Source of the DNA: Pseudanabaena sp. lw0831
GTDB lineage: Bacteria; Cyanobacteriota; Cyanobacteriia; Pseudanabaenales; Pseudanabaenaceae
DNA: 64,000 nt
Reading direction: 5' to 3'
Assembly (NCBI RefSeq): GCF_016584665.1
Contig: NZ_BBJB01000110.1
Span: forward strand, 1-64,000
The position numbers and the translations under genes were made by a program. The notes under the pieces were generated by a model. It did not search any database and had not been told where the DNA came from. It worked only from the letters and a program-made list of their open reading frames with translations. Of the stretch, positions 35,833-63,856 are shown in pieces. The number at the start of each line of letters is the position of its first letter. Positions within the stretch are counted from its first letter, which is position 1.

Positions 35833-35913
35833 AAAACCGAAAGAAAATGAGTCTTTTAAGTCTAACGCGATCGCGCTCATCTTGCACTGATTTATTCACT
35901 CGGCGTAAGTATG

Positions 35914-35968
35914 AAACCAATTTTGGTGTTTTCAGCGCCTGCGGCGCTGAAAACACCAAAATTGGTTT
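35914..35968. repeat. Family B-related hairpin between rpoZ and a response regulator
   Basis: AAACCAATTTTGGTGTTTTC continues to CAGCGCCTGCGGCGCTG and returns as its complement. The TATGAAACCAATTTTGG end matches the inner arm of family B elements at 46720-46852 and 57825-57955. Confidence 0.7.
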
Positions 35969-46669: not shown

Positions 46670-46719
46670 TTGATTTTAATTAGACTGACTAGGGTTGCGA
46701 ATTTCAAAAAGCAATATTC

Positions 46720-46852
46720 CCACAATTCTCATTATAAAAAATTGGTTTTGATGAAAGTCCACGTGTGCGGACTTTCATCAAAACCAATTTTGGGATGTTC
46801 AGAGCAGTATGCTCTGAACATCCCAAAATTGGTTTCATAATTTAGAGTCGAT
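46720..46852. mobile_element. Family B double-hairpin element, flanked by 10-bp direct repeat
   Basis: Ends are CCACAATTCTCATTAT (left) and, read in reverse, ATCGACTCTAAATTATGAAA (right). Two hairpins (46741-46788 and 46782-46834) share the CCAATTTT arm. AGCAATATTC occurs just outside both ends (46710-46719, 46853-46862), a probable target duplication. The element lies between divergent genes. Confidence 0.75.
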
Positions 46853-46950
46853 AGCAATATTCATAACAAAATCCAACAAAGCATAAAACGTCTTAGAATG
46901 ACAATAGTGAGGTTATATAAAAGTTATATTTATATCTTTAAGGCGCATCT

Positions 46951-51895: not shown

Positions 51896-52207
51896 AAAAA
51901 TTTATTAACTATTGACATCTCTACATACAGCAATTCTAAATGGTTTGTATAAGAACATAACTTTCGTCTGTAATCTTCTACAAACTTATGACAATTTGTG
52001 ACAAAAATAACCCATATTTTTTATAAAAGTCGTACATTCAGTGACTTTAATATAAAAAATAGCGGTCTTATATTTAATTGCTCCTGCCTACATACTTTTA
52101 TTACAGCCAATTTAGTAATTTACATCTCCTGTAGTAATACAAGTTCCTAAATTGGTTTCATAATACAAATAGCCGAATTCATTGCTCCAAGTTGGATATC
52201 ACCGCAT
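51896..52207. other. Intergenic region with a family B fragment
   Basis: This AT-rich gap lies between divergent genes. ATTGGTTTCATAATACAAAT at about 52152-52171 resembles the inner end of a family B element without the rest. Promoters for both flanking genes probably lie here, but no clear -10/-35 pair was chosen. Confidence 0.5.
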
Positions 52208-52426
52208 ATGTCTTATTCGATCGCCTCAAATATATGTGAAGGCATAGCCGATTGCGTACCTGCTTGTCCTGTTGCCTGTATCGAGCAGGGTGAGGGCGCG
52301 AACATTAAGGGGACGATTTGGTTTAAGATCGATGCCTCAATTTGTATTGACTGCGGTGTTTGCTTGCAGGTATGCCCTGTTCACGGGGCTATTTTGCCAG
52401 AAGAGCGTCCTGAGTTAGTAATATAA
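52208..52426 (+). CDS. Ferredoxin with two 4Fe-4S-type cysteine motifs
   Basis: 72 residues with eight cysteines. The first set is ICEGIADCVPACPVACI (about 8-24), with four Cys in the spacing found in cyanobacterial ferredoxins of this type. The second is CIDCGVCLQVCP (about 46-57), a classic Cx2Cx2Cx3CP motif. It is a soluble low-potential electron carrier. Whether the first site holds a 3Fe or 4Fe cluster cannot be told. A hairpin follows the stop at once. Confidence 0.88.
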   Translation: MSYSIASNICEGIADCVPACPVACIEQGEGANIKGTIWFKIDASICIDCGVCLQVCPVHGAILPEERPELVI

Positions 52427-52427
52427 A

Positions 52428-52480
52428 AACGAATTTTAATGTTTGCAGCGCCTTCGGCGCTGCAAACATTAAAATTCGTT
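52428..52480. terminator. Perfect hairpin after the ferredoxin gene (family B-related)
   Basis: AACGAATTTTAATGTTTGCA, a GCGCCTTCGGCGC tip and the complement, with 25-bp arms. The right flank TTTCAAAATGAAAATTTCTG resembles the family B end (TTTCATAATGAGAATTGCTG). Confidence 0.8.
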
Positions 52481-52529
52481 TCAAAATGAAAATTTCTGGT
52501 TTTCATGTTTTTTTCTTTTTGATCTGTAG

Positions 52530-57717: not shown

Positions 57718-57815
57718 ACCAATTTCTAAAAGTATGGTCACCATTTTGGAAATTAAAAACCAAACTCAGTAAGGTCTTTTAATTTCCAAAATGGTGTTGC
57801 CATTTGGAAATTTCT
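57718..57815. repeat. Family C element
   Basis: TACCAATTTCTAAAAGTATG at the left is mirrored at the right by AGAAATTTCCAAATGGCAAC read in reverse. The arms pair over ACCATTTTGGAAATTAAAA with several mismatches. The centre AAAAACCAAACTCAGTAAGG is the reverse of the linker at 55171-55192. Confidence 0.65.
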
Positions 57816-57824
57816 ATAAACAAG

Positions 57825-57955
57825 CAGCAATTCTCATTATAAAAACCGATTTTTTGAAAGCCAGCCTACGGCTGGCTTTCAAAAAACCGATTTTTGTATT
57901 TCCAGCGCCTTTGGCGCTGGAAATACAAAAATCGGTTTCATAATGAGAATTGCTG
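57825..57955. mobile_element. Family B double-hairpin element with 9-bp target duplication
   Basis: 131 bp with ends CAGCAATTCTCATTAT that are exact inverted copies. Two hairpins with GCCAGCCTACGGCTGGC and CAGCGCCTTTGGCGCTG tips are linked by AAAACCGATTTTTG. The direct repeat ATAAACAAG lies immediately outside both ends (57816-57824 and 57956-57964). It is non-coding and a clear MITE-like insertion. Confidence 0.9.
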
Positions 57956-58009
57956 ATAAACAAGTCACAAAATATCTGCAAACCGCCCTTTAGTACATAA
58001 TGGTAATAA

Positions 58010-58481
58010 GGGAGAGTAAGCGTGCGGTTGCGAAATTTGTCTCAAAATTAACGAAAGGCTATTTCGAGTACAAGTTTTGAGGAAAGTCCGGGCTTCCACG
58101 AAGATCAGGCTGCTGGATAACGCCCAGTGCGAGCGATCGTGAGGATAGTGCCACAGAAAAATACCGCCTGTTGTAGACATAGCGCGAAGCGCTATGTCTA
58201 CAACAGGTAAGGGTGCAAAGGTGCGTTAAGAGCGCACCAGCAGAGTCGTGAGGCTCTGGCTCGGTAAACCCCAGTTGGAAGCAAGGCGAGAGGATACAAG
58301 TGTTGCGATCTTCAGTTGATCTTGTGTCCGTTACTTAATGGGGTTGCTTAGTGAAAGCTAGGCGATCGCAATTAAGTGTGTGCCGCATGAGGTATTTGGC
58401 AACAAATATCCCAGATAGATAACCGCTAAGGCAGTTGTTAAAACTCCTGAAACAGAACCCGGCTTATGTCTTACTCTTCCT
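58010..58481 (+). ncRNA. rnpB: RNase P RNA (bacterial type A)
   Basis: The catalytic RNA of RNase P, which removes 5' leaders from pre-tRNA. The universally conserved GAGGAAAGTCCGGGC is at about 58079, and AGAGGATACAAG, GGTAAACCCCA and the 3' conserved ACAGAACCCGGCTTA are present. GGAGAGTAAG at 58011-58020 pairs with CTTACTCTTCC at 58470-58480 to form P1, which fixes the ends to within a few bases. P12 carries an unusual perfect 41-bp palindrome (58167-58207). Confidence 0.93.
58167..58207 (+). repeat. Palindromic hairpin in the P12 region of rnpB
   Basis: CCTGTTGTAGACATAGCGC, GAA, exact complement, placed between ATACCG and TAAGGGTGC where P12 normally lies. The GCGCGAAGCGC tip is of the same type as the intergenic hairpins of this window. 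Confidence 0.8.
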
Positions 58482-58827
58482 ATTAAAATTCTCCAAAGGC
58501 TAGAAATTACGACACTTCACGCTGTAAATCTGGTCTTTATAACAACAGTTTTTATTGTGCTTACGGCAAGAATAAAAACTCAAAAACTTACTGGGTTTGA
58601 TTTTTGGATTTTCTAATGAGTATATGCCCATTAGAAAATCGCTAGCGGCTTATATATTTTTTGGTTTTGTGCCGTAGGTGGTCAAAAAACAAAAGGCAGA
58701 TTTTAAGTTTTTTGATTGATATTAACCTTGAAGATCTGGTACATCTAGAATCTATATGAGATCGCTTGAATTGCAACCTTAAACTGCATTTGTTCTTACG
58801 AAACATTTTAACTAGAGTAATTAAACT
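58482..58827. other. Intergenic region with a family C remnant
   Basis: About 58568-58641 contains AAAACTTACTGGGTTTGATT, the family C linker, followed by an imperfect hairpin GATTTTCTAATG...CATTAGAAAATC. The rest is AT-rich. No gene is seen. The promoter for the 7TM-HD gene presumably lies in the last 100 bases. Confidence 0.55.
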
Positions 58828-61899: not shown

Positions 61900-62205
61900 T
61901 ATTTAGAATACTGAATCGATCCTAATAGAAATCACAAATAATTTATCTGTCAAACTAAAAATTAAAGTTAGATATTTTACTTACTCTATTAATAATTCCA
62001 ATTTAAAAATAAGCCTTTCATAGAAGTATAGTAATCCTAAATCTCTGGAAGGCTGTAACCAAAGGCGCTATGAAACCAATCTTTAATAATGAGAATTGCT
62101 GGATGCTAGGCATAGCAATCTCAATAATATGCAATTCATAGTAAATTTACATGTGATAATCTTAATTAATTGAGAATTTGCAAGTCTTATTGAGATAGGG
62201 GAAAC
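61900..62205. other. Intergenic region with a family B end fragment
   Basis: ATGAAACCAATCTTTAATAA followed by TGAGAATTGCTGG at about 62068-62101 is one end of a family B element with its hairpins missing. Otherwise AT-rich, with a probable promoter and GGGGAAAC before the GTG of the next gene. Confidence 0.6.
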
Positions 62206-63771: not shown

Positions 63772-63853
63772 ATGAGGGCGATTTTGAGGTTTTCAGCGCC
63801 TGCAGTGCTGAAAAAAAGATTTGCAAAGCCAATCTTACATAATGAGAATTACT
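63772..63853. repeat. Degenerate family B element
   Basis: GATTTTGAGGTTTTCAGCGC, an imperfect CAGCGCCTGCAGTGCTG tip, then CCAATCTTACATAATGAGAA and TTACTGG. The order of parts is as in family B, but stems have mismatches, so it looks like a decayed copy. Confidence 0.6.
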
Positions 63854-63856
63854 GGT

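Follow-up and report, generated by a model that had tools for sequence, protein, structure and literature searches.

A Pseudanabaena MITE family with a candidate partner insertion sequence and hairpins that appear to flip and re-pair in place

Sequence comparison supported the identification of a 131-bp element, located upstream of rnpB in Pseudanabaena sp. lw0831, as a non-autonomous insertion sequence (IS) derivative, i.e. a MITE. The MITE family is new, although of a type already known, and has a candidate partner IS, and what is unusual is the clarity with which its hairpins seem to be flipped and repaired in place. We find it very probable that the whole is explained by an IS-derived MITE moved in trans, with hairpins that flip and re-pair where they stand by way of template switching during replication. 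The window, meaning the whole stretch of 64 000 nucleotides analyzed here, lies on contig C110 of a 5.26-Mb genome (denoted G000).

The element carried the repeat CAGCAATTCTCATTAT at both of its ends, matching exactly at 16/16 bp, and it was flanked by ATAAACAAG on both sides, which confirmed the 131-bp unit with perfect inverted ends and a 9-bp target duplication described in an earlier note on this DNA (Table 1). Two stems, each with a 3-nt loop, were found between the ends, and comparison with other copies gave a family layout of end-X-hairpin A-X'-hairpin B-X-end with a non-coding interior. No open reading frame of at least 90 aa overlapped the element, and it gave no Rfam match at gathering score, RNase P being the sole Rfam match in the window. 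The DNA fold of the element reached -60.8 kcal/mol (z -16.5) and its RNA fold -85.1 (z -18.7), with 0/200 shuffles equalling the value in either case. The earlier note had also described a linker able to form pairs with the arm of either end, which holds for the copy at 46720 and for the common family layout but not for the 57825 copy. There the left arm, AAAAACCGATTTT, and the linker run in the same sense, so that the right arm, and not the linker, has two possible partners. The three X arms were concordant in 72/123 of the 131-bp copies, in 7 versions, and a third arm turned round exactly as in the 57825 copy was seen in 2/123, with one more copy showing a further change.

Table 1. Positions of the element upstream of rnpB, its parts and its relatives within the window
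Feature	Position	Strand	Basis or remark
Left flanking repeat AGCAATATTC of second copy	46710..46719	.	
Second, older copy, 133-bp type, right end decayed	46720..46852	.	
Right flanking repeat AGCAATATTC of second copy	46853..46862	.	
Single hairpin with family arms, ends unrecognisable	35911..35968	.	
End fragment: arm and start of right end	52149..52171	.	
Single-hairpin remnant, decayed end	52425..52500	.	
Left copy of 9-bp target duplication ATAAACAAG	57816..57824	.	sequence
131-bp MITE, entire element	57825..57955	.	
Left terminal inverted repeat CAGCAATTCTCATTAT	57825..57840	+	
Outer arm X3	57841..57853	.	turned round here, same sense as linker; family comparison
Hairpin B: stem TTGAAAGCCAGCC, loop TAC	57854..57882	.	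family alignment and fold
Linker arm X2	57883..57894	.	family alignment and fold
Hairpin A: stem TGTATTTCCAGCGCC, loop TTT	57895..57927	.	family alignment and fold
Outer arm X1, partner being the linker or X3	57928..57939	.	family alignment and fold
Right terminal inverted repeat	57940..57955	-	
Right copy of target duplication ATAAACAAG	57956..57964	.	sequence
rnpB (RNase P RNA class A), downstream neighbour	58012..58482	+	RF00010, 247.3 bits
Right-end fragment, exact terminal repeat	62068..62101	.	
Decayed hairpin and right end	63772..63854	.	

The family was found to be abundant. The 16-mer of the ends, when allowing at most 2 mismatches, occurred 144 times in G000 (73 + 71), compared with 2 times (2 + 0) for a reversed-pattern control, and element matches (E ≤ 1e-3) were present in 22/25 relatives of the same genus and in 2/32 genomes from outside the genus. 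Together with the empty sites of other copies described below, these numbers bore out the proposal that the element is a transposed unit with further copies in the genome. The second copy in the window, claimed to have a 10-bp flanking repeat, proved to be real and to stand between two AGCAATATTC, but decayed, with 2 mismatches to the 16-mer at its left end and a right end that was more decayed. Five fragments that had been listed could likewise be read in the sequence, though decayed: the end was exact at 62086-62101, had 1 mismatch at 63839-63854 and 3 mismatches at 52483-52498, and the pieces at 35911-35968 and 52149-52171 retained only inner arm or hairpin parts. In the loci collected at that stage, 268 pairs of end-like sequences were 36-200 bp apart, some of them clearly mispairings, and their sizes were 131 bp (123 pairs), 141 bp (23), 133 bp (13), 122 bp (11), 134 bp (7) or 45 bp (5), the 122- and 141-bp elements having the same ends with unrelated interiors. 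Another set, which was chosen by perfect ends and hence does not allow estimates of frequency, comprised 78 stretches of the genome collection with exact ends 84-112 bases apart (43 titled Pseudanabaena and 5 Phormidium tenue FACHB-1050); these held 80 elements, 41 with a 9-bp duplication, 2 with a 10-bp duplication and 37 without, some of the latter at contig edges. The exact end sequence CAGCAATTCTCATTAT gave no match in the literature searched, and no paper on a Pseudanabaena MITE was found among the literature matches listed.

Target duplications were common throughout the family. Among elements of 129-136 bp (n = 161, of which 159 had both flanks), the 9-bp duplication was exact in 68/159 and matched at 8 or 9 of the 9 positions in 104/159, compared with a mean of 0.5 exact duplications when the right flanks were shuffled over all elements; 7 elements matched one base out of register, as expected of 10-bp repeats. 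The exact duplications, here taken from elements of 43-145 bp, showed little consensus, with 91 distinct of 94. Exact empty alleles keeping one target copy were found for the loci L002 (in G017 and G005), L011 (in G017 and G019) and L204 (in SR411), and near-exact ones for L016 (in three genomes) and L288 (in Phormidium tenue). When 20 sites of G000 were queried in six relatives, both flanks were obtained for 5 loci, giving 2 exact and 1 near-exact empty alleles, with other hairpin DNA or other sequence instead at the L014 site and a larger difference at the L031 site. L143, a self-match of neighbouring copies, was discarded from the empty sites, and L362/L211 was imperfect as an empty site. 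Copies of the family were shown by this comparison to have inserted at new sites after the sister species split. At the L002 site, other genomes had insertions offset by several bases (L416, L417 and L439) or, between two repeats resembling the target, what may be a short remnant of an end (L413), which hints at an insertion hotspot there.

Looking for an empty site at the rnpB copy itself, as the earlier note had advised, was less rewarding than for the other family copies: a matching rnpB region was recovered from 24/26 genomes, and no exact empty allele was found among these 24. Element ends (at most 3 mismatches) within 600 bp upstream of the conserved rnpB motif were seen in only 3/24, i.e. 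G000, G017 and G005, at different positions; the copy in G017 had inserted independently and has another duplication, TTTAATCCT, and several other genomes had different hairpins upstream of rnpB. The sequence from about TAGTACATAATGG onward was similar in most of the rnpB loci compared, placing the insertion upstream of that stretch, which presumably represents the rnpB promoter. Another repeat, having a AAAACCAAACTCAGTAAGG core, was noted at 57720-57815, directly to the left of the 131-bp element; a similar sequence is found near rnpB in G005 (L256), and in G017 (L288) it hosts another MITE copy.

An IS with the same ends and 9-bp duplications, of the kind that the earlier note had advised searching for, was found in a sister species, G020, and was undetected in G000. 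Using a search with the 122-bp relative, we there found the family ends flanking about 1418 bp with a 440-aa frame. The ends of this IS were identical to those of the MITE, 4/5 of the copies examined had exact 9-bp duplications, and G020 contained 10 full-length copies of the 440-aa transposase. By its ends and duplications, the G020-type 1.4-kb IS is the likely mobiliser of the MITE. Matches to the transposase (E ≤ 1e-5) were present in 12/26 genomes of the genus, with fragments only in 8 of these 12 and full or near-full versions in G020, G004, G024 and G016 (46% identity). At the same threshold none was found in the draft genome G000 or in the element-rich G005, G008, G010, G012 and G017, from which the mobiliser may have been lost, or in the draft assemblies of which it may have been missed. 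Six Pfam DDE_Tnp_1 loci of G000 were considered as mobiliser and rejected, since none of them contained an end-like sequence within 3 mismatches. In the interiors of the MITE and the IS nothing was recognised as common beyond the ends, so that descent of the MITE from the IS by internal deletion was not supported.

More widely, the transposase gave matches at E ≤ 1e-10 in 22/244 genomes drawn from the phylum and at 1e-5 in 20 plasmid records, some of them non-cyanobacterial. Among 35 homologue loci, in a scan biased to the family end, 5 had ends of the CAGCAATTCT type bounded by exact 9-bp duplications, and the homologue locus L250 had CAGCAATTATTGGT ends with a 9-bp duplication. Carriers of the ends in other phyla had transposase homologues in 4/13 genomes, and 20 loci from other phyla included some related ends but no two of them that were separated by 1-2 kb and flanked by a target duplication, one end pair about 1 kb apart being found in L483. 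Residues D132, D221, E341 and E343 were invariant in 13/13 transposase homologues, and D132, D221 and E341/E343 would be the catalytic DDE residues. Pfam and NCBIfam matches of the 440-aa protein were weak and below cut-off, mostly to IS4 or DDE_Tnp_1, and a sequence search of the PDB gave no convincing match (3 chains, E 0.18-0.73). One homologue was labelled ISNCY and the others transposase or hypothetical. The ISNCY-labelled DDE-type IS of the cyanobacterium Gloeothece verrucosa (WP_013335080.1) has a transposase homologous to that of the Pseudanabaena IS, with 47.6% identity over 97%, and ends of CAGCAATTCTCATTTT in place of CAGCAATTCTCATTAT; other homologues of this type share 9-bp duplications with the Pseudanabaena IS in some cases, and the element in the window differs from such IS in having no transposase. 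A palindromic interior and a high copy number could also be accounted for by transposition of single-strand hairpins, as in IS200/IS605 or REP/RAYT systems, but IS200/IS605 is not known to make target duplications, and such a process is extremely improbable for an element whose inverted ends are long and exact, whose target duplications are 9 bp and whose partner, sharing these ends, is of DDE type.

The hairpins were evaluated using 123 distinct 131-bp copies. Their stems vary yet are 96% paired, with Watson-Crick arm cells at 1784/1845 for hairpin A and 1519/1599 for hairpin B; over the 28 pairs there were 41 alternative pair types, with 235 alternative-pair cells compared with 141 mismatch cells. 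The loops came in reverse-complement pairs, being GAA (33) and TTC (20) or AAA (19) and TTT (15) in hairpin A, and AAC (30) and GTT (12) or GTA (19) and TAC (13) in hairpin B. This symmetry was reached by random relabelling in 0/20000 cases for either loop, whereas column shuffles reached it in 543/5000 and 3627/5000, a null that fails to separate since symmetric columns are what flipping itself produces. The pooled loop counts are therefore not decisive on their own, and the weight is carried by comparison of the same sites.

Eight sites with loops, each common to two or three species, could be compared in that manner, and 4/8 had an exact loop inversion. Both loops were inverted in L067/L283 and in L303/L317 (of the set L276/L303/L317), and one loop in L343/L356 and in L006/L068. 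Loops were otherwise different, without inversion, in L106/L291 and L369/L373, L357/L370 had compensated transversions and a one-base change in one loop, and in L191/L032 the loop of their common hairpin was unchanged. By such comparisons, exact inversion of loops and paired, compensating changes of the arms were shown to occur in copies that remain at a single site. These sites also bear on the possibility of an ordinary MITE with stems that are perfect through youth, having recently transposed from a few masters in which the stem variants arose. That would agree with the many copies having perfect ends and exact target duplications and with their insertion polymorphism, but the copies L067/L283, L276/L303/L317, L343/L356 and L006/L068 have identical or almost identical target duplications across species and are still set apart by inverted loops and by compensated changes in the arms, which argues for change in place and makes youth as the explanation quite unlikely.

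We also compared 182 orthologue-like hairpin pairs defined by common flanks, taken from all collected loci except L140-L251; a few of the pairs may not be true orthologues since the flanks of this MITE family include part of the element. Upon omission of 38 pairs with unequal loop length, 144 remained, with the same loop in 39 and a difference of one base in 39 (2 being inversions), two bases in 26 and three bases in 40. Exact inversions made up 22/40 of those with a three-base difference; flip events are, however, fewer than pairs, because 8/22 came from a single hairpin inside rnpB and 6 of those 8 involved one genome. Counted by group, 11/17 were exact inversions, 4/11 belonging to this family, compared with 1 in 27 expected for random 3-nt loops.

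Concerted hairpin evolution of this kind seems better explained by replication template switching than by selection on RNA, even if the compensated arms could in part reflect selection for pairing. If the hairpins were instead a selected RNA device carried on a mobile element, be it a bistable switch, a terminator or a stabiliser of transcript ends, RNA selection would underlie the covariation of the stems, in agreement with the very strong RNA fold and with the T-rich arms that adjoin GC-rich stems. Selection on the fold does not predict loop inversion, however, and Rfam has no family at the element. An excess of G-T over A-C cells, which favours RNA selection, was present and weak (88 compared with 65, in the orientation of the element and with the constant outer pair, 16/72, omitted), and RNA selection was rejected as the main cause of covariation. 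With a simple open reading frame caller, 10 of 143 insertions were in reading frames and 129 were divided as 55 divergent, 59 tandem and 15 convergent, which is close to the intergenic base pairs of the window (4685/4452/1378) and thus indicates no bias to gene ends; a terminator role was rejected, since placement follows the available intergenic DNA. We consider an RNA device to be unlikely on these grounds.

Template switching in an IS-derived MITE would work as follows. The IS transposase would bind the 16-bp ends in trans, and the element would be moved in a DDE reaction with 9-bp staggered cuts, inserting where intergenic DNA offers room, in the present case ahead of that part of the rnpB upstream region which is conserved. 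As the palindrome is replicated, the nascent strand would switch template there, whereby one arm would be recopied from the other, so that stems stay perfect, and the loop would become inverted. The first and third X being direct repeats, replication slippage from one to the other would drop both hairpins and leave a 45-bp form in which both ends are retained and which may remain mobile. For the host, the element is probably nearly neutral.

Such a 45-bp mini form, having the composition TIR-GAAACCGATTTTT-TIR and corresponding to the 131-bp form minus the stretch from the first to the third X, was found in 11/26 genomes of the genus at up to 3 mismatches, with 0 for the control. It looks like an internal deletion of the 131-bp form, and its X, as compared by eye in G024 and G000, had versions common in the longer copies of the same genome. 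Distinct 45-bp copies in the collected loci had exact 9-bp duplications in 14/34 and 8 or 9 of 9 matching positions in 22/34. In G024, one 45-bp variant is present four times (L393-L396), and these copies were rejected as evidence of independent mobility, their flanks being 100% identical as in a segmental duplication; L393 has an exact 10-bp repeat. L397, a fifth copy sharing this private end variant, stands between different flanks with a duplication of its own at 8/9 bp, which makes one move as a 45-bp unit likely. The L191/L032 site showed a size change in place, from a comparison of 133 bp in UWO311 with 83 bp in G000, the direction of which we infer.

Like cyanobacterial MITEs such as a Microcystis MITE (PMC11448079) and Nezha, which PMC10969869 cites, the present family is small, (nearly) non-coding and multi-copy, with a folded interior and with ends and duplication length in common with an IS. 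The Microcystis MITE, given in PMC11448079 as 187 nt, paired with ISL3 and having an 8-nt duplication, differs from the element in the window in its ends and in its duplication length (8 nt compared with 9 bp). The signature seen here matches the footprints of template switching described in PMC8794818, which counts compensated changes of stems and exact inversions of loops among them and gives examples from bacterial rRNA. Table 1 of PMC8794818 has 69 cases of 'loop inversion only' compared with 9,406 single compensatory changes; those hairpins are in RNA genes, whereas the present ones are mobile and intergenic, with inversions frequent among the changes observed. Minute inversions of chloroplast hairpins (e.g. 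PMC2903610) are also small, palindrome-associated and recurrent among relatives, and are found in plastid spacers and not in a transposable family.

The rnpB hairpin that gave 8/22 of the exact inversions lies at 58167-58207, within the RNase P RNA gene, and had its stem rewritten and its loop inverted between species of the genus. Whether Pseudanabaena has an unusually fast template switching genome-wide, so that MITE, other intergenic and rnpB hairpins flip and homogenise between sister species, we regard as evenly balanced, judging from the comparisons of hairpins. If this should be true, mobile hairpin families would be natural reporters of palindrome-driven replication errors, and covariation alone would mislead as evidence of RNA function in Pseudanabaena genomes. 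Same-site comparisons between close species display loop inversion and compensated stem change in DNA that needs no RNA function. They open the template-switch account of covarying stems to direct testing in a bacterium and warn that covariation is not proof of RNA function. The family furthermore provides an IS and a MITE that pair clearly through identical 16-bp ends, as well as MITEs carrying these ends in MAGs labelled as other phyla.

Contigs of the latter kind, titled Verrucomicrobia, Kiritimatiellae, Gammaproteobacteria and Rhizobiales and possibly misbinned, had 133- to 142-bp elements with unrelated interiors, and the cyanobacterium Phormidesmis had a 122-bp element with exact ends. 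Elements with family ends in the Verrucomicrobia MAG (L149, L155, L169 and L183) hold variants of a GCCGGGTGAGGGCACCCGGC palindrome, which suggests that unrelated hairpins may have been captured as interiors. Two 141-bp elements with the same ends were found 9 bases apart in Pseudanabaena sp. 'Roaring Creek' (L143:6690-6980). In G012, finally, a gene read by eye as guanylate kinase lies between two partial elements with intact outer ends (L103:1508-2368), the bracketed unit being 861 bp and without a target duplication.
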